From positions 1-64,000 of the IMG/VR virus record IMGVR_UViG_3300027867_000003: a stretch of DNA of 64,000 nucleotides. One strand, written 5' to 3'. This DNA comes from a virus. The notes under the pieces are model-generated. The model was given only the letters and a program-made list of their open reading frames with translations. It was not told the DNA's origin and made no database searches. This document shows positions 20,031 to 55,999 of the stretch, piece after piece; positions within the stretch are counted from its first letter, which is position 1, and each line of letters starts with the position of its first letter. Both the position numbers and the translations under genes were made by a program.

Positions 20031-23000
20031 TTAGGCAGCCCCGCCTGTCATAACGCGGAGATACTTCCCCGGTCTTGTCGGATCAGGGACATAATAATTG
20101 CCGTCAGGAGCCTGACGAGCGCCAGGGGGGAAACGCCCTTCAGGTCCTGACGGAGCTGACGACGGAGAGGGAGAACCCCCATCAGTTTTCAAATCATCGG
20201 AACCCAGGTTGACTTTCGAGAGATCACCGTAGAGTTGGAGGACATCCGAGGCCAGATTTCGGAGCCCTTCGGCTTCACTGCGGCGATCCTCAGCATGGAC
20301 TCGCTGAGCCTCGGCATTGGCTTTCTGGACAATCGAAAGAAGTTGCGTTTCAAAGGTTCGATTGATCCGCTCTCGGGCGAGAGCACGGTCAGCATTGCGG
20401 TCGTTGACCTGGGCCATTAACTGTTGACGCTCGGCAGTGAGTTTCTGAATTTGTTGCTGCGATTGAGCCAATAGGGCCTGAACCTGAGGCGGAACATCCC
20501 GCATTTCGGGCTGAATCATTCCAGGCGGGAGGGTCTTTGCCAGCCGGGCTGCGATTTCCTCCGCGCCTTCCCAATCCTGATTCTTCGCCACGAGGTCGGC
20601 GATCACTGGGGCCGCAGTTGGAATGGCCCTCAGGAAGTCCATCATGGATTCGACAGTCTCAATTCGCCTAGTAGCGTAGCTGGGGCCAATCGTCACGGCG
20701 ACGCCGTAGCGACCATAAGTCGGATCAAAGGCCCGAGTGACTTTGGCCTGAGCAGAATTCTGTATATCGGAAACAGGTTTCTGCCCACCAGGTTGAATCT
20801 GAAGCTGTTCCTCAGTATCATCGTCACGGAGGATTGTCACAACGCGGCCGGGGCGGGTATAGATCTTTGGAATCAGGTCAACATAGATTTCACCTGTGTG
20901 ACGGAGGCTATGAATCAGGTTATCAATATAATTGAAGCTACCAATATCTCCCGAGCGGCGAAGCTCCCGAAGCGCCCGACCGCTTTCGTCGTACTGACGC
21001 TCTTGAAGGGTTGCGTCGAAACGAACGCCGGTTGTCGCCAACATGTCCTGGGCGGCGCCCATTGCGACATTCACAACACCGGCGGGAATTTGAGCAGGCG
21101 GAATTCGCTGCGGTGGAGGAACCATATGACCGTGGATTTCTTGGGCACGATAGGGAAGGAAAGACAGGTTCTTAGTATTAGATTCCTGCCAAACGCCCTC
21201 ATAGCCTTCTAGCTGGCCTTCTGCGATTAAATAAGGCGATTTAGGAACCAACATCGTTACTTCTGTTTCCATCGTGTTATGTGTTGCAATCATTCCCCTT
21301 CCAGCTAGAAACAGATGAGAAGGACTGTCCACAGAAATACATTTAACGGGAACAGAAGTCACAGATTCTACAGATACTATGCTGTGCCTCTTAGACCTTC
21401 TCTCTTGAAAAGGTCTGACTTTGTTTTGAATAGTTGCTTTCCTTTTAAGTCTAAATACATTTTCATCATGAGGACACGAAAATAAGAAAATATATGCGTC
21501 ACTCCCCTCATAAAGTCTACCTGTTGAAGCATTGACAGTGTTATGTTTCTCCCCAGCTTCCTTAATAATCTTGACTCTTATTCCTAGGGATGCAATAAGT
21601 TCCTCAAAATCCAAGGCTAACTTTTCGTTTGTAGTAGAAAACCCACATTGATTGTTTCGCGGGTTAATAGTTCCATCGGTGTCCATCAATCCTTGTAAAA
21701 GATTCCACCTTTGCTGGATAGAACCTCTAAGATACATTGCGGGTATGTGCTTTTTATTGACTATCAATCCCAACCCAGTAAATAAATGTCTAACACCTAA
21801 AACAGTGAATCTGCAAACCGCGTTATCTCCTCTAATATCATATTTTGTTGAACTCAATCTATATCTCAAATTTGTCAAATTATCTCGCATATTATCTACA
21901 TCAGACACACCAGAGAAAATTATAGGATCATTCTTAGATCCGTCCCCCAACCAAACACCCAATAAATATGGGTCTATGGGAAATTCCATGGAAGGAAGCT
22001 CCAAGGGCAAAGTAGTATAAATAAAATGCTTATCAGGTTCTAGTTCCTTTGTAGTTAAGATTTTATCTGTCCAGATTGTTCCAGCCGCTTTTCGACCAGA
22101 ACGCTCTTCAACCGCCCAGGGATGATCCTCATCAGCAATTATGGATGTCCCACAATTAAAAGTCACTCTAAAACATTTGTGAAACAGATGTGTTGGACTA
22201 ACTCCCTTAACATTACAGATGTCGCCTTTTTCGTCAAAAACTTTATCTCCAACAACTATATCACCAATAGGTTTCCATCCATCTGGAGTTGGAATAGGAG
22301 TATCGATTGCAAGACAGCGACTATAGTTCAGCATCCTCTGTGGATCTTTAGCTTGCCGAATAATTCCCCAGAGCTTTACCCTGCCCTCAATGTCCTGTTC
22401 ATCACCAATGACTTTGACAATCGGAATCCATCGACCTGGCCAAACGGTTTGTTCGAGGATCTGACGCCCTGTGATTTTGTACCATGTTATCTTAGGAACC
22501 AGTGATCTGCGTTTGTCGACGACCTTGAATTGTTGCAGAACCTCGGGGCGAAGCTCGTCGCGCCAACCCTCGAAACCATTTTCTAGGAGAACCAGCTCTC
22601 GGGGCTCTAATTTGGTTTCATAGTATTCCGCAATTCGAACACTATATTGATCGATCCAAGTCTTTAGGCTGTCACCGAAACCGCCTGTGACCCACGGCAT
22701 CGGGTCTGCGTCGGGCCACTGAGCTTTGAATTCATCTCGGTCAATCATCTCTGTGATGAAGCCGAATTTAGCGTCACTTCCGTCTATTTCGGTAGAATCG
22801 GGATCAAGATAAACTGAGTAGGCATTCCTAATGCGTTTACAAACAATGATTTGATCGAAGGTATCGGGGTCAGCATATTCAGTTGTAACTCGCCAGTATC
22901 CCCAACCTTTTCTGACGGCAGACTCGAAGCCAGTGTCATAGGCTCGATCTGCACGACTGTCGCGTTCGATTTCACGAATAAGCCCACGATAAATCCGAGC

Positions 23001-23417
23001 AACTTCAACATCGCTCCGGTCGCCAATCGGATGAATGTCGAGCGTTGGGCGGTTCTGGCGTTGGTCATTCGTAACTTGTTTAACGAGGACTGGAAACTTA
23101 TTGACCGTGAGGCAGGGACGTCGTTCCGAGTTCCTTCGTGCCCGATCGTTGGCGCTCCACTGATCTCCAGCATAGAATTTGTCGTCGTCGAGACCTTCGC
23201 GGCGATTATCGGCCTCAGCCGAGATGCAACGTTCGAGGCGCTTGCGGGCACGAGAGAGGACTTCGGCTTCATCCTCTTGCTGAGATTGATATTCGGCACG
23301 GAGAGGACGCACATTGGAATTATCGTTAAGATCAGTCGGTGAAATTTTATTCATTCCGACGTCGACCTTTGGCAAACTGATCTTGCCACTGTCGCGTGGG
23401 CTATCAGGGTCCTGCAC
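20031..23417 (-). CDS. portal protein (P22 gp1 family) containing an intein
   Basis: 1128 aa as translated; removing the intein (residues 368-714) leaves a 781-aa extein, close to the P22 portal (725 aa). The extein has the family blocks RRPCLTVNKFPVLVKQVTND and RRNSER near the N-terminus, the conserved KDPQRMLNYSR, and after the intein TMETEVTMLVPKSPYL. The portal forms the 12-mer through which DNA is packaged. The intein splits the most conserved portal motif. The C-terminal 150 residues are coiled coil (barrel-like) with a Pro/Ser-rich tail. Confidence 0.85.
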   Translation of the reverse strand: MQDPDSPRDSGKISLPKVDVGMNKISPTDLNDNSNVRPLRAEYQSQQEDEAEVLSRARKRLERCISAEADNRREGLDDDKFYAGDQWSANDRARRNSERRPCLTVNKFPVLVKQVTNDQRQNRPTLDIHPIGDRSDVEVARIYRGLIREIERDSRADRAYDTGFESAVRKGWGYWRVTTEYADPDTFDQIIVCKRIRNAYSVYLDPDSTEIDGSDAKFGFITEMIDRDEFKAQWPDADPMPWVTGGFGDSLKTWIDQYSVRIAEYYETKLEPRELVLLENGFEGWRDELRPEVLQQFKVVDKRRSLVPKITWYKITGRQILEQTVWPGRWIPIVKVIGDEQDIEGRVKLWGIIRQAKDPQRMLNYSRCLAIDTPIPTPDGWKPIGDIVVGDKVFDEKGDICNVKGVSPTHLFHKCFRVTFNCGTSIIADEDHPWAVEERSGRKAAGTIWTDKILTTKELEPDKHFIYTTLPLELPSMEFPIDPYLLGVWLGDGSKNDPIIFSGVSDVDNMRDNLTNLRYRLSSTKYDIRGDNAVCRFTVLGVRHLFTGLGLIVNKKHIPAMYLRGSIQQRWNLLQGLMDTDGTINPRNNQCGFSTTNEKLALDFEELIASLGIRVKIIKEAGEKHNTVNASTGRLYEGSDAYIFLFSCPHDENVFRLKRKATIQNKVRPFQERRSKRHSIVSVESVTSVPVKCISVDSPSHLFLAGRGMIATHNTMETEVTMLVPKSPYLIAEGQLEGYEGVWQESNTKNLSFLPYRAQEIHGHMVPPPQRIPPAQIPAGVVNVAMGAAQDMLATTGVRFDATLQERQYDESGRALRELRRSGDIGSFNYIDNLIHSLRHTGEIYVDLIPKIYTRPGRVVTILRDDDTEEQLQIQPGGQKPVSDIQNSAQAKVTRAFDPTYGRYGVAVTIGPSYATRRIETVESMMDFLRAIPTAAPVIADLVAKNQDWEGAEEIAARLAKTLPPGMIQPEMRDVPPQVQALLAQSQQQIQKLTAERQQLMAQVNDRNADRALARERINRTFETQLLSIVQKANAEAQRVHAEDRRSEAEGLRNLASDVLQLYGDLSKVNLGSDDLKTDGGSPSPSSAPSGPEGRFPPGARQAPDGNYYVPDPTRPGKYLRVMTGGAA
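21276..22316 (-). mobile_element. intein with LAGLIDADG homing endonuclease in the portal gene
   Basis: 347 residues. It starts with Cys (CLAIDTPIPT, block A) and ends with block G ending His-Asn, followed by Thr as the +1 extein residue. Block B is ADEDHPW and block F VKCISVDSPSHLFLAG. The two LAGLIDADG helices are LLGVWLGDG (intein residues 118-126) and LQGLMDTDG (207-215), both with the catalytic Asp. The DNA is visibly AT-richer than the extein. All splicing residues look intact, so splicing and homing are both plausible. Confidence 0.92.
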
Positions 23418-50787: not shown

Positions 50788-52212
50788 ATGTCTCGTGATC
50801 TCGATCCCCGGAAAATCATAGTCCGAAATCGCCAACGGAAGGACCTCGGAAATCTGACATCCCTAGAGAACTCCATAAAGACCCGAGGCCAGATTCATCC
50901 AATCGTCGTTCGAACCGAGCCCGATGATTCGATTGTCCTGATGGTCGGTGGCCGAAGGCTCCAGGCTTGCATCAATCTCGGCATCCCCGTCAAGGCCGAC
51001 TTCTGGGACGACCTCGACGACACAACGGCCAAAGCCGTTGAACTAGAGGAAAACATAAAGCGAAGCGATCTGTCGTGGCGCGATCACGCCACAGCGGTCG
51101 GCGAACTCCATCAATTATACAAAGACACCCGCCCGGATTGGACTGTCCAGAAAACCGCAAGCGAAATTAGCATGGCCCCCAGCCAGATTCATCTAATTCT
51201 CACCGTATTCAAGAACCTCGCTTCGCCCCTCTTGAACAATTCCCAGAGTCTCGACCAATCTTATTCAATCCTTCAGAACACAGCTGAACGCAAAACGGCC
51301 CAAATCGTCGCCGACATAATTTCAGCGAGCAAAGAGATCTTCGACTCAGCATCGAATTCACAGGAGAAAAACAATGAAAGAGACTCTATTGGCCCTGACG
51401 GCAGGGATGATAGTGGGGTTAATAATGTCACCAATGGTCAAGGACTTATCAATTCAGAGAAGGATGATGCTGATAGCCATTCCAGCAATCTTAGCAGGAG
51501 TCTTAGTTCAACGTCTATATCACCCAAAATAATTCTGAATACCAATTTCCTCACCTGGGTCGCCAAATACAGCGGGCCTCAGTTCAACCTCATTCACTGC
51601 GACTTCCCATATAGCATCCAATATGACAGCTATGCAAAATCCATCTCTAGCACAACCGAAGATTATGATTTCTCCGGCTTCTTCGACCTCCTCGACCCGC
51701 TCGTCGAAAACATCAATAAGATCGCCTCCTATTCATCGCACATCATGTTCTGGTTTTCTATGAAATTCTACGAACAAACGAAACAAAAACTCGAATCCAG
51801 TGGTCTCTATGTCCACGACCATCCCCTAATCTGGCACAAGACTGACAACGCCGGCATCATTCCGGGTAGAGACAATGCCTTTCCCCGCCGGGTCTACGAG
51901 ACAGCATTTCTATGTTCCCGTGGTCGAAGAACCCTCGTCAAATCTCTCTCAAATACCTATGGATGTCCAACATCCGATAAACCGATTCATCCCTCTCAGA
52001 AGCCCGAGCCGATGCTAAGGCACTTTTTCTCAATGCTCATAGACGAAACAACCGATTTCTTCGACCCCACCTGCGGCAGCGGCACTGCGCTCAGGGCCGC
52101 CGACGCCGTCGGAGCCCGCTCGGTCCTCGGTGTTGAAATCGACCCTGCTTACGCCGCCTCAGCCGAAAGCGCCTTCCAGACATCCTGGCTACTCCGAAAA
52201 GCAATAAGATGA
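50788..52212 (+). CDS. ParB-domain / DNA methyltransferase fusion
   Basis: 474 aa. Residues 1-125 are a ParB/Spo0J-like domain (LENSIKTRGQIHPIVVRTE, MVGGRRLQACINLG, ELEENIKRSDLSWRD). Residues about 195-245 are a Ser/Asn/Asp-rich linker. The C-terminal 225 residues are an amino-methyltransferase (N6-adenine or N4-cytosine) with motif IV DFPYS and motif I FFDPTCGSGTALRAA plus HPSQKPEPM. It probably protects phage DNA from restriction. The linker DNA also encodes a membrane peptide in another frame (51374-51532). Confidence 0.82.
   Translation: MSRDLDPRKIIVRNRQRKDLGNLTSLENSIKTRGQIHPIVVRTEPDDSIVLMVGGRRLQACINLGIPVKADFWDDLDDTTAKAVELEENIKRSDLSWRDHATAVGELHQLYKDTRPDWTVQKTASEISMAPSQIHLILTVFKNLASPLLNNSQSLDQSYSILQNTAERKTAQIVADIISASKEIFDSASNSQEKNNERDSIGPDGRDDSGVNNVTNGQGLINSEKDDADSHSSNLSRSLSSTSISPKIILNTNFLTWVAKYSGPQFNLIHCDFPYSIQYDSYAKSISSTTEDYDFSGFFDLLDPLVENINKIASYSSHIMFWFSMKFYEQTKQKLESSGLYVHDHPLIWHKTDNAGIIPGRDNAFPRRVYETAFLCSRGRRTLVKSLSNTYGCPTSDKPIHPSQKPEPMLRHFFSMLIDETTDFFDPTCGSGTALRAADAVGARSVLGVEIDPAYAASAESAFQTSWLLRKAIR
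51374..51532 (+). CDS. overlapping 52-aa two-helix membrane protein
   Basis: Lies wholly inside the methyltransferase gene in the +1 frame. AGGAG ends seven bases before the ATG at 51374. The product has two strong membrane helices (LLALTAGMIVGLIMSPMV and MMLIAIPAILAGVLVQRL) joined by a charged turn KDLSIQRR. In the host frame this same stretch is a low-complexity Ser/Asn/Asp linker, just where a second gene could be tolerated. It could be a small holin-like or inner-membrane protein. Confidence 0.68.
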   Translation: MKETLLALTAGMIVGLIMSPMVKDLSIQRRMMLIAIPAILAGVLVQRLYHPK

Positions 52213-52949
52213 ACGCTTATTACAACGAAATAGACACCTATTGTTCTAAATGGCTAGAACGGTTAATTTCGTCCAATGTGCTACCACAGGGCATAGTAGA
52301 TAATAGAAGTATAATAATGGCTAACTATGTTAACTTAGGACTATTTAACCAATGCCATTTCTTTGCCGGAATTGGCGGATGGCCTCTAGCTTTGCGGATG
52401 TCAAATTGGCCTAAAGACGAGCCCATTTGGACCGGAAGTTGCCCATGTCAACCGTTTTCTATAGCGAGCCCAAATCGGAGTAGAACAGCCGATGACCGAC
52501 ATCAATGGCCCAACTTCTTCCAACTCATCGAAAAGCATCGACCTTCAACAGTCTTTGGAGAGCAAGTTGCAGGAATGGATGGCCTGTCATGGTTCACCGA
52601 TATCAGGAATGACCTTGAAGGAATTGACTATGCTGTTGGGGCCGCGAATTTGCCAGCTATCGGGGCACCCCACAGGAGAAGCAGAATCTTCTGGGTGGCC
52701 CACTCCAGCCGCAAGAGATTGGAAGGACCTCTCTTTACGAGAGAAAGGTTATTCGTTGCAGCGCAGGAGGCATCAGCCTTCAACAGTCACCACGGCTTAC
52801 GAACGCGGTTTAACGACAGCCCAAATCCCGCATCTACTCTGTCATATCATGGGATTTCCCGACCTATGGATATTGTGCGCGCCTTTGGAAACTCGATAGT
52901 TCCTCAAACAGCTACAATATTCATAAACCTAATTACAGAATGCCTCTAA
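52209..52949 (+). CDS. C5-cytosine DNA methyltransferase
   Basis: 246 aa. Start overlaps the previous stop (ATGA). Motif I CHFFAGIGGWPLAL, motif IV GSCPCQPFS with catalytic Cys80, motif VI FGEQVAG, motif VIII APHRRSRIFWVA and motif X RAFGNSIVPQTA. The target-recognition region is short. The 5' 140 bases are AT-rich. Half of the gene is also open and protein-like in the +1 frame. Likely DNA protection, together with the ParB-methyltransferase. Confidence 0.82.
   Translation: MNAYYNEIDTYCSKWLERLISSNVLPQGIVDNRSIIMANYVNLGLFNQCHFFAGIGGWPLALRMSNWPKDEPIWTGSCPCQPFSIASPNRSRTADDRHQWPNFFQLIEKHRPSTVFGEQVAGMDGLSWFTDIRNDLEGIDYAVGAANLPAIGAPHRRSRIFWVAHSSRKRLEGPLFTRERLFVAAQEASAFNSHHGLRTRFNDSPNPASTLSYHGISRPMDIVRAFGNSIVPQTATIFINLITECL
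52492..52899 (+). CDS. overlapping-frame protein within the methyltransferase gene
   Basis: 135 aa in the +1 frame: LQQSLESKLQEWMACHG, SGMTLKE, then SSGWPTPAARDWKDLSLRE and IMGFPDLWILCAPLETR. I recall phage and bacterial proteins with exactly these blocks (SL.S.L, TWK, WPTP..RD, WLMG.P..W..CAP), annotated separately or as methyltransferase-related. Here they are written over the cytosine methyltransferase motifs. Whether it is translated is unknown; the ATG at 52492 lacks a good ribosome-binding site. Confidence 0.42.
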   Translation: MTDINGPTSSNSSKSIDLQQSLESKLQEWMACHGSPISGMTLKELTMLLGPRICQLSGHPTGEAESSGWPTPAARDWKDLSLREKGYSLQRRRHQPSTVTTAYERGLTTAQIPHLLCHIMGFPDLWILCAPLETR

Positions 52950-53158
52950 GAAAGATTTCCCAAATGACCCTCTTTCTAGTTGCCTATTTCATTCTCAACA
53001 TAACCATCGCGTTCAAATTCCTCATCGACAGCCCGGGTCTAAAACAGAGTGTCGCCTTCATCTGTGCCTATCTTATAGCCCTTGTCGGAATTCCCGTCCT
53101 AATTGCAATCTTCATCAAAGTCAGTTTCGATCGCCTCTATAACAGAAAACCCCTTTGA
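52940..53158 (+). CDS. small membrane protein, two TM helices
   Basis: 72 aa (64 from ATG 52964). TM1 TLFLVAYFILNITIAFKFLI, TM2 VAFICAYLIALVGIPVLIAI, basic ends. Overlaps the methyltransferase stop. Size and topology resemble holins, but no endolysin was found. Second such gene within 1.6 kb after the overlapping one at 51374. Confidence 0.58.
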   Translation: MPLRKISQMTLFLVAYFILNITIAFKFLIDSPGLKQSVAFICAYLIALVGIPVLIAIFIKVSFDRLYNRKPL

Positions 53159-53174
53159 AAGGCAACTTAGAGAT

Positions 53175-54518
53175 ATGAAGGTCGTTATAGTCGGCGAAGC
53201 CTGGGGGAGGCATGAAGAACAGATGTCCCATGCCCTCGTAGGACCCTCGGGTCGCGAATTGACCCTCGAACTCGGTATCTCCGGCCTCGCCCCCTTCATG
53301 CAAATTCAATGTCATGAATGCAAAGAGATGGTCGACTTCACCGACGGCACCTGCGATAATTGCAAAAGTCGCATCTGGCCCAATGAATTCCATCTTCTCG
53401 ACTATTGGAAGAAACTGCGAACCGAACATGGTATTGCCGTCACCAACGTCTTCAACCGAAGGCCGTTTGCCCTTTATAATTTCCCCGACATCGGCTGGTC
53501 AACTTGCAAGATCATCGAAGATCGCGGAAAGTTTAGCAAAATTAAGCGCCTCTCCGACGACACCGAGCACACCGTCATCACAAAATCTGTCATCCAGAAT
53601 GACCTCGGTGGCTTCTTTTCTCCCGAGAGACAGACCCCGATGCCCCCGTGGAAAGCATCAAAGATAGTCAGCGGAACACACCTAAAGCGCGAGTTCTTCC
53701 ATCACGTCGAGAGCCTATGGACGGAAATCCGCGACCTCGACCCGACATTGATCCTCTGTCTCGGCAACGCCGCCTGCTGGGCCATCCTAGGTCAGACAAA
53801 AATCACCGCCCTCCGCGGCACAGTTTCTATGAGTGCGAAGGACCTGACAGGATTTGAGAAGAAATGCCTCGCAACTTTTCATCCTGCCGCCGTCCTTCGC
53901 GCCCCTCCCATGCGAGCGAGCGTCATTCCCGACCTGACGAAGGCCAAACGCGAAGCCGAGTTCCCCGAAATACGACGCCCCGAACGATGGCTGACAATCC
54001 CGAGTCCCAACGAGGCCGGAATAAAAGAAGGCTATGAATGGTTAAAACGACCGACTCAATCGTATTCCTGCGACATCGAAACAATCAAACGTCAAATATC
54101 TATCATCGGTTTTGGAAGATCCCCCTCAGATGCCCTGGTTATCCCCTTTAGGGATGCAAACGTCGATAACCAAGGTCATATCGTCGATGTCGGAAAGATC
54201 GCCACTGATCTCGGATTCCCTTCAACCAATATAAATTATTGGCCCACTCCGGAACTAGAATTCGAAGCCTGGAAACTCGCTATAGCAGCCCTCCAATCAG
54301 ACAAAGAGAAGATATTCCAAAACGGTATATATGATTTATCTTATATGGTCGGAATGGGCATATTTCCAAAGAACATCGCCCACGATACGATGTTGTGGCA
54401 TCATAGTCGATTCATTGAACTACCTAAGAGCTTAGGATTTTTAGGCTCTATATACTGTAATGAAATTTCGTGGAAACAGATGTCCCGACACAGCAACTCT
54501 CTAAAAAGAGACGAATAA
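53175..54518 (+). CDS. uracil-DNA glycosylase-like / 3'-5' exonuclease protein
   Basis: 447 aa from ATG 53175. Residues 1-270 are a UDG-superfamily domain: VGEAWGRHEEQ, ALVGPSGREL, TNVFNRRP, LGNAACWAILG and TFHPAAVLR, with an inserted zinc ribbon (CHECKEMVDFTDGTCDNC). Residues about 285-440 are a DnaQ-like exonuclease with motif I DIET and motif II QNGIYDLSYM, then HDTMLWHH and LPKSLGFLGS. The third exonuclease motif is encoded in the next frame. In related phages these domains are fused to the polymerase. Confidence 0.78.
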   Translation: MKVVIVGEAWGRHEEQMSHALVGPSGRELTLELGISGLAPFMQIQCHECKEMVDFTDGTCDNCKSRIWPNEFHLLDYWKKLRTEHGIAVTNVFNRRPFALYNFPDIGWSTCKIIEDRGKFSKIKRLSDDTEHTVITKSVIQNDLGGFFSPERQTPMPPWKASKIVSGTHLKREFFHHVESLWTEIRDLDPTLILCLGNAACWAILGQTKITALRGTVSMSAKDLTGFEKKCLATFHPAAVLRAPPMRASVIPDLTKAKREAEFPEIRRPERWLTIPSPNEAGIKEGYEWLKRPTQSYSCDIETIKRQISIIGFGRSPSDALVIPFRDANVDNQGHIVDVGKIATDLGFPSTNINYWPTPELEFEAWKLAIAALQSDKEKIFQNGIYDLSYMVGMGIFPKNIAHDTMLWHHSRFIELPKSLGFLGSIYCNEISWKQMSRHSNSLKRDE

Positions 54519-54520
54519 CC

Positions 54521-55999
54521 ATGCCAACAATAGCGTTCCACGAGATCGAAATTAATAAAGCCAATCAGGCCATATATTGCGGCGGGGACAATTTTCTCAC
54601 CAAAGAGATAGACCAAGTCAGGCAGAATTTGCGAGACAATGACACTCTCATATATGATCTTGAGCGAGCCCTGCAAGGCCCCGTCCTAGAACTAATGCTC
54701 CGAGGCTTCCGCGTCGACATAGACGAACGCGATAAGGCCATAGAGCTAGTCACACAGAAGCGAGCCTCAGTCGAGAAAATCCTCTCCGCCATCATAACAG
54801 CGATCCAGGGTTCCTATGATCCCAAGTTCCCCCGATCAGACAAACAACTGCGAACTCTGTTCTACGATCATATGAGGCTAATTCCAATTGAAAAGCACAT
54901 AAACGGTGAGACCAAGAGACCAATGGACAGAGAGACATTGGAGAAACTCGAACTCCAAGATAAGTGGGCCGCCCCCATCATCAATGCAATTCTCCAGTTT
55001 CGCGATCATTCGAAGTCCCTCGAAGTCCTCGAAAAGGAAATCGACTCCGATTTCCGCTGGCGATGCTCATATAATATCGGAGGGACAAATACGGGTCGTT
55101 TTAGTAGTTCCAAATCCCCCTTTGGAACAGCCAGTAATTTTCAAAATATTCATGAGGACCTTAGACGGGTCTTCATCCCCGATTCGGGATATAAGCTCTA
55201 TGGCATCGATAAGGCCCAGAGCGAATCTCACGACGTCGCCTGGTTCTGCGGTACAATTTTAGGCGACTGGACCTATCTCGACGCCTGCCAATCAGGCGAC
55301 TTACATACCTTCGTAACCCGCATGTGCTATCCTGATTGGGCCTGGACCGGAGACCTTAGAAAGGACCGTGCTTTAGCTGAACGTCGTTTTTATCGTCTCT
55401 TCACCTATCGTGACGTCTCAAAGCGCGTCGGCCATGCTACGAACTACCTTGGAACTCCCAAAGAGATTTCTCGACAAACTCGGCTACCCCAGAATATTGC
55501 TGAGGAATTCCAAGAACGCTATTTCACCGCCTTCCCGTGCATCCCGCAGATGCACCAATGGATTTCTCAAGAACTTCAACGCCACAGATTCTTAGTCAAT
55601 TCCTTCGGTCGCAGGAGAGACTTCTTCGACCGTCCAGATAGCCGCGAGACACTGAAATCGGCTGTCGCCTATATGTTTCAATCAGCGACCGCAGACGCCT
55701 TGAATTTGGGTATGTACCGTCTTTGGAAGAACATGAGAAGCAAAGTCCAACTCCTCTCCCAGCTTCACGATGCCGTTTACTTCCAAGCCCCCATCACGGA
55801 CGAAGAATCCGAAAGAACCCTAATCCGTGAATGCGTCAATTGGGTTCAGATCACCCAGAGAGATCCGAAATCAGGTCGCTCTATGACCATCCCAGGAGAG
55901 CCGGTCGGCGGCTTCAATTGGGCCCACCGATTTAGAATCCGAGAAGACGGCACGAAGGAAGAATGGAACAAACATGGCCTAGACTCAATTAGGATCTAA
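54521..55999 (+). CDS. DNA polymerase, family A, polymerase part
   Basis: 492 aa from ATG 54521; the frame is open from 54470, overlapping the previous gene by 49 bases in -1. It begins with the missing exonuclease motif (AIYCGGDNFLTKEI) and carries polymerase motif A (LYGIDKAQSESHDVAW), motif B (SKRVGHATNYLGTP) and motif C (SQLHDAVY, HDA instead of HDE). It should be the replicative polymerase, acting with or fused to the preceding protein. CTAAAAAG in the overlap could allow a -1 slip. Confidence 0.8.
   Translation: MPTIAFHEIEINKANQAIYCGGDNFLTKEIDQVRQNLRDNDTLIYDLERALQGPVLELMLRGFRVDIDERDKAIELVTQKRASVEKILSAIITAIQGSYDPKFPRSDKQLRTLFYDHMRLIPIEKHINGETKRPMDRETLEKLELQDKWAAPIINAILQFRDHSKSLEVLEKEIDSDFRWRCSYNIGGTNTGRFSSSKSPFGTASNFQNIHEDLRRVFIPDSGYKLYGIDKAQSESHDVAWFCGTILGDWTYLDACQSGDLHTFVTRMCYPDWAWTGDLRKDRALAERRFYRLFTYRDVSKRVGHATNYLGTPKEISRQTRLPQNIAEEFQERYFTAFPCIPQMHQWISQELQRHRFLVNSFGRRRDFFDRPDSRETLKSAVAYMFQSATADALNLGMYRLWKNMRSKVQLLSQLHDAVYFQAPITDEESERTLIRECVNWVQITQRDPKSGRSMTIPGEPVGGFNWAHRFRIREDGTKEEWNKHGLDSIRI

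Follow-up and report, generated by a model that had tools for sequence, protein, structure and literature searches.

A conserved second reading frame nested in a phage cytosine methyltransferase gene, with a possible role as target-recognition subunit

Two reading frames at the methylase locus

The window, a stretch of 64,000 nucleotides of viral DNA, contains a gene for a C5-cytosine methyltransferase (alpha, read in frame 0) within which a second open reading frame (beta, read in the +1 frame) is fully nested (table 1). The start codon of alpha overlaps the stop codon of the upstream gene (ATGA). That gene (50788-52212, + strand) codes for a protein in which a DNA methylase domain is joined to an N-terminus resembling ParB, and a second methylase thus directly adjoins alpha in this phage.

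Alpha matches PF00145 (2e-12) and phrog_363 (3e-56), and a profile of the alpha family finds M.HhaI (3e-15). Frame 0 satisfies the motif order of PF00145, namely I, IV (PCQ), VI, VIII, and X, with motif VI reading GEQV instead of ENV in all six aligned sequences. No match to motif IX was found in frame 0 of the window, and a IX-like block reads in the +1 frame. Hence, frame 0 does not meet the criterion of a single chain that includes motif IX and a target-recognition domain.

Beta matches phrog_1008 ("DNA methyltransferase"; E 5e-8, profile positions 61-150 of 329; E 3e-10 in a genome search), as does each of the 45 proteins scanned from the +1 alignment. Searches of Pfam, NCBIfam, and PDB with beta gave no recognition, and its AlphaFold model is of low confidence (pLDDT 67, pTM 0.28). 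The initial annotation had described two readable frames, and this description holds: LESKLQEW, GWPTPAARDWKD, MGFPDLWILCAP, and APLETR are present in beta, and FGEQVA and AFGNSIVPQ are the overlapping residues of alpha. Its placement of frame-0 motifs IV to X within the bounds of beta stands only in part. Motif VI, motif VIII, and the start of motif X are there; upstream of these bounds are motifs I and IV, and motif IX was not found in frame 0. The annotated phage proteins it had called familiar can be identified as phrog_1008. It left the +1 protein without an assigned function.

Table 1. Positions of alpha, beta, and their motifs in the window
Feature	Position	Strand	Basis	Remark
Alpha, C5-cytosine methyltransferase, frame 0	52209..52949	+	ORF, motifs, profile matches	246 aa
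Motif I, FFAGIGG, frame 0	52359..52379	+	translation and alignment	
Motif IV, GSCPCQPFS, frame 0	52434..52460	+	alignment	includes catalytic cysteine
GGAG, candidate Shine-Dalgarno	52477..52480	+		11 nt before beta ATG; weak, position unusual for the family
Beta, +1-frame ORF, ATG to TAG	52492..52899	+		135 aa, nested in alpha
Motif VI, FGEQVAG, frame 0	52554..52574	+		overlaps +1 residues (S)LESKLQE
Motif VIII, APHRRSRIFWVA, frame 0	52665..52700	+	alignment	
GWPTPAARDWKD module, +1 frame	52693..52728	+		frame 0 of relatives evolves neutrally here
IPHLLCHIMGFPDLW, motif-IX-like block, +1 frame	52825..52869	+	profile alignment	
Motif X, FGNSIVPQ, frame 0	52884..52907	+		beta stop codon inside motif X codons

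Conservation and coding signals of the +1 frame

Both frames, always in register +1, are present in 166 of the 166 related loci first examined; of these, 160 were collected from viral contigs with either frame as query. Scanning bacterial genomes with the +1 family yielded 46 loci, all in the same register. When the +1 protein was searched with tblastn, it hit 26 phage records, in which the underlying annotated genes are methylases or unnamed, and frame 0 matches 413 phage records, with N15, K1 phages, and BASEL phages among them. Both ORFs are annotated in Escherichia phage K1H, Xanthomonas phage PhiXhv-18, and Paenibacillus phage Jacopo, and the methylase frame alone is annotated in N15 and BcepC6B. 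The record of Pseudomonas phage PMG1 has only the +1 ORF annotated as a methyltransferase; its alpha (~1500-2400) is frameshifted near the N-terminus, a change that is either a sequencing error or real.

Synonymous codons were shuffled within each gene, which retains the methylase protein and codon usage. Across loci, the mean +1 open run is 295 codons versus 152 expected from the shuffles, and it is 285 versus 147 codons where frame 0 was the sole query used to collect the loci. Run length in the +2 frame, the control, is significant in no case. The +1 run is 237 versus 95 codons in Paenibacillus-type loci and likewise 237 versus 95 codons in Hades-type loci, with 100% of each significant. 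Actinobacteriophage (ShiLan-like) loci have little excess in +1 length, as would be anticipated for a domain that is split or resides in frame 0. A set of 147 loci has 6 +1 stops over reference codons 38-205 versus ~430 expected, and there is no overall depletion of stops in the +2 frame over the same codons.

Substitutions in 33 independent pairs were classed as synonymous or nonsynonymous in each frame and profiled along the gene. Only 10 ordinary control genes could be aligned, so the main control comes from those parts of the gene that lie outside beta. Codons 0-90 behave as in an ordinary gene, with frame 0 alone constrained, and codons 90-165 are constrained in both frames. Between motifs VIII and X (codons 165-240), constraint is confined to +1 (alternative-frame dNN/dNS of 0.54; frame-0 ratio of 1.08). 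Constraint is again in both frames over codons 240-330 and in frame 0 only beyond 330. Among close pairs (at least 82% identical, in long gap-free blocks), differences in codons 165-240 are distributed 164:42:28 over frame-0 positions 1:2:3, and frame-0 position 1 is the wobble position of +1. The pattern along the gene indicates that +1 is a real coding frame and that the methylase frame is near neutral in the variable region. Robustness was checked against kappa, gap handling, and divergence, and the result held for kappa and gap handling. Selection was measured in relatives only, the nearest of which is ~65% identical to the window.

The +1 frame also has start signals in relatives. A Shine-Dalgarno sequence of at least 4 nt paired with an ATG or GTG in +1 occurs within methylase codons 24-44 in 117 of 147 loci (42.5 expected), and one of at least 5 nt in 67 loci (11.6 expected). 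There is no such enrichment at codons 45-97. These signals favor independent internal initiation over frameshifting.

In the window itself, the +1 open run is 144 codons versus 60.5 after synonymous shuffling of frame 0 (p = 0.0033), and the +2 frame is ordinary in the same test. Scored with a profile of the +1 family that was built without the window, the +1 frame reaches 155 bits versus 77.6 ± 11.7 (maximum of 116) in 1000 synonymous shuffles. Because +1 stops are located upstream at reference codons 42, 59, and 84, the ORF can begin only at 52492. The window is an outlier in this respect, and its beta is short, starts later than in relatives, and is without the usual start region and the first conserved beta segment. 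Its start at this position and its continued function in the window are inferred.

The initial annotation had posed a choice between shadow proteins of methylase genes and true dual coding. The latter is backed by the shuffles, the two-frame substitutions, the depletion of stops, and the internal ribosome-binding site, and we regard dual coding in the family as nearly certain. Its proposed check, whether homologues of both frames always come from the same locus, was met in all of the 166 related loci first examined and of the 46 bacterial-genome loci, and purifying selection in frame 0 only, which would have refuted dual coding, is contradicted by substitution counts that reveal selection on +1 as well.

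Domain content of beta and a proposed two-polypeptide enzyme

The conserved core of beta consists of GSTLYxLTWKxxxTPSGR, followed by one or more (G)WPTPxAxD modules and then LNPxxSRWLMGxPxxW. Beta thus includes an LNPxxxxWLMGFPxxW block, which in other phages immediately precedes motif X in the methylase frame, in the place of motif IX. Homologues have three arrangements. In arrangement I, beta is nested and motif X is in frame 0 (the window, N15, K1H, and Jacopo). In arrangement II, found in loci L190, L223, and L262, frame 0 terminates beyond motif VIII, and motif X is in the +1 protein together with the modules and the LNP..MGFP block. In arrangement III, everything is in frame 0 (L221 and ShiLan gp70). 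The block QLNPDWVECLMGFPIGWTDI was found in all three settings (L173, L190, and L221). The single chain of L221 matches both phrog_363 (8e-69) and phrog_1008 (2e-16), and the +1 protein of L190 matches phrog_1008 (2e-60) as well as the C-terminus of phrog_363 (256-317 of 327; 1e-7). When compared with hhalign, the profiles of beta and of fused methylases align over the WPTP..LNP..MGFP region (97.7%, E 2e-12). HMMER places the block on residues 272-308 of HhaI, with a nonsignificant domain score.

Under a strict pattern, 188 of 313 loci have motif IX in +1 and motif X in frame 0. The window block IPHLLCHIMGFPDLW is missed by this pattern, as it does not start with LNP, yet is aligned by the profile. 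The C-terminal half of the AlphaFold model of a fused methylase is, like the model of window beta, too low in confidence to permit comparison of folds. The LNP..MGFP block is thus only inferred, by position and pattern, to be motif IX, and the WPTP modules to be the target-recognition region. The fused loci L221, L172, and L237 retain, over motifs VI-VIII, a short ORF in +1 that contains the first half of beta (reading, for example, TSSWKM..FSETWPPSGMTRSG), and the rest is in frame 0.

We suggest that the locus very probably codes for one cytosine methylase as two polypeptides, with beta as the target-recognition and motif-IX subunit, a reading for which there is no biochemistry. Alpha would bind S-adenosylmethionine and carry out catalysis with motifs I, IV, VI, VIII, and X. 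Beta, begun from its own internal ribosome-binding site, would provide the small domain, made up of motif IX and the WPTP modules for target recognition. An active enzyme may then assemble from the two polypeptides and would methylate the DNA of the phage, plausibly to counter restriction by the host. Assembly, the role of motif IX, specificity, and the biological role are all inferred.

That +1 is a mere shadow, with only frame 0 coding and similarity in +1 a by-product of conserved methylase codons, is barely credible. The +1 frame shows no amino-acid constraint before approximately reference codon 75, and strong conservation of frame-0 motifs will make +1 resemble itself at those places. 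A shadow ORF is countered by the synonymous shuffles, the depletion of stops, the internal ribosome-binding sites, the +1-only selection between motifs VIII and X, and the presence of the same +1 domain in the methylase frame elsewhere; the shuffles and substitution counts lead us to reject a shadow ORF for the family, unless the alignments are grossly wrong. A programmed +1 frameshift, by which translation begun at one start codon would yield an alternative, fused methylase, would suit loci L190, L218, L223, and L262, in which frame 0 terminates beyond motif VIII and +1 runs on through motif X. However, a late shift requires neither a +1 start site nor depletion of stops from codon 38, both of which are strong, and selection on +1 begins at about codons 75-80, before motif VI. 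Frameshifting is disfavored by the start signals and seems very improbable.

Beta could also be a real second gene that was overprinted on the methylase and has an unrelated function, such as regulation or anti-restriction. Its fold is not named by any library, and overlap could be mere economy. Such a gene is nevertheless improbable in light of natural fusions, in which one and the same enzyme has the C-terminal half of beta located between its motifs VIII and X, the absence of an HNH signature in Pfam, and the gap at motif IX of alpha that beta fills. A further doubt concerns the window alone, where beta, though real in relatives, may be a decaying relic. The window has three upstream +1 stops and the other 146 loci together have one there (in L109), the first conserved segment is lost, the Shine-Dalgarno sequence is weak, and the variable region is shortened. 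Conversely, the 135 codons that are left form an open frame (p = 0.0033), and both halves score far above synonymous shuffles. We consider decay unlikely, though not to be dismissed, and function of the short beta of the window as uncertain, if somewhat favored.

The proposed two-polypeptide methylase has precedents. The gene for the small subunit of M.EcoHK31I is located inside that of its large subunit, in another frame. Both M.EcoHK31I and M.AquI are C5 methylases of two polypeptides, and in M.EcoHK31I, the larger has motifs I-VIII and X and the smaller has only motif IX (PMC3404938). The window meets this division of motifs, with I, IV, VI, VIII, and X in alpha and the IX-like block in beta. 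By analogy and without comparison to EcoHK31I sequences, the locus is most likely similar in architecture to M.EcoHK31I (YGGCCR). They differ in that the present family is selected in +1 only from motif VIII to motif X and has a beta with repeated WPTP modules, whereas in EcoHK31I it is the large subunit to which the predicted target-recognition domain is assigned; in addition, the present system is phage-borne and no restriction partner was noted. M.AquI (CYCGRG) is likewise split, and resembles L190, L223, and L262, in which alpha terminates beyond motif VIII and the variable region, IX, and X belong to the downstream protein. Unlike M.AquI, the window and most relatives keep motif X in frame 0 and have a fully nested beta.

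Frame 0 and +1 of the window match phrog_363 and phrog_1008, respectively, which are both described as "DNA methyltransferase" but are separate PHROGs families; the descriptions shown are silent on nesting. An out-of-frame HNH endonuclease hidden in a phage methylase gene, in the ShiLan domain, is similar in being an out-of-frame protein within such a gene, but it is a homing endonuclease in an insertion and a mobile element rather than a subunit (PMC11855218). No HNH motif was matched in the +1 family by Pfam. In the literature searched, no account of a phage-wide nested methylase was found. It is likely that this is a widespread dual-coding module of tailed phages, in which the specificity subunit is located in +1 of the catalytic subunit, a modular recognition array evolves where the catalytic frame is free, and all nested, split, and fused steps are present in relatives.

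Consequences for annotation and other features of the window

The findings amount to an annotation correction for a methylase family of hundreds of phages, in which often just one protein is annotated, and explain the existence of a +1 "methyltransferase" family. Alpha cloned alone from such phages may be inactive or differently specific. The alternation of selection along the gene, from frame 0 only, to both, to +1 only, to both, and back to frame 0 only, is an unusually clean natural case, and the series of nested, split, and fused homologues makes movement of a domain into another frame and back testable.

Elsewhere in the window, a portal-like ORF of 1128 aa (20031-23417, - strand) has an apparent intein with LAGLIDADG-like blocks (CLAIDTPIPTPDGW ... 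LLGVWLGDGSKN ... GLMDTDGTI ... GMIATHNT). Downstream of alpha, a family A DNA polymerase is seemingly split (53103-54518 and 54470-55999, + strand), as either two genes or a frameshift; the N-terminal ORF (53103-54518), with resemblance to a glycosylase and an exonuclease, is in a different frame from the polymerase ORF and overlaps it.
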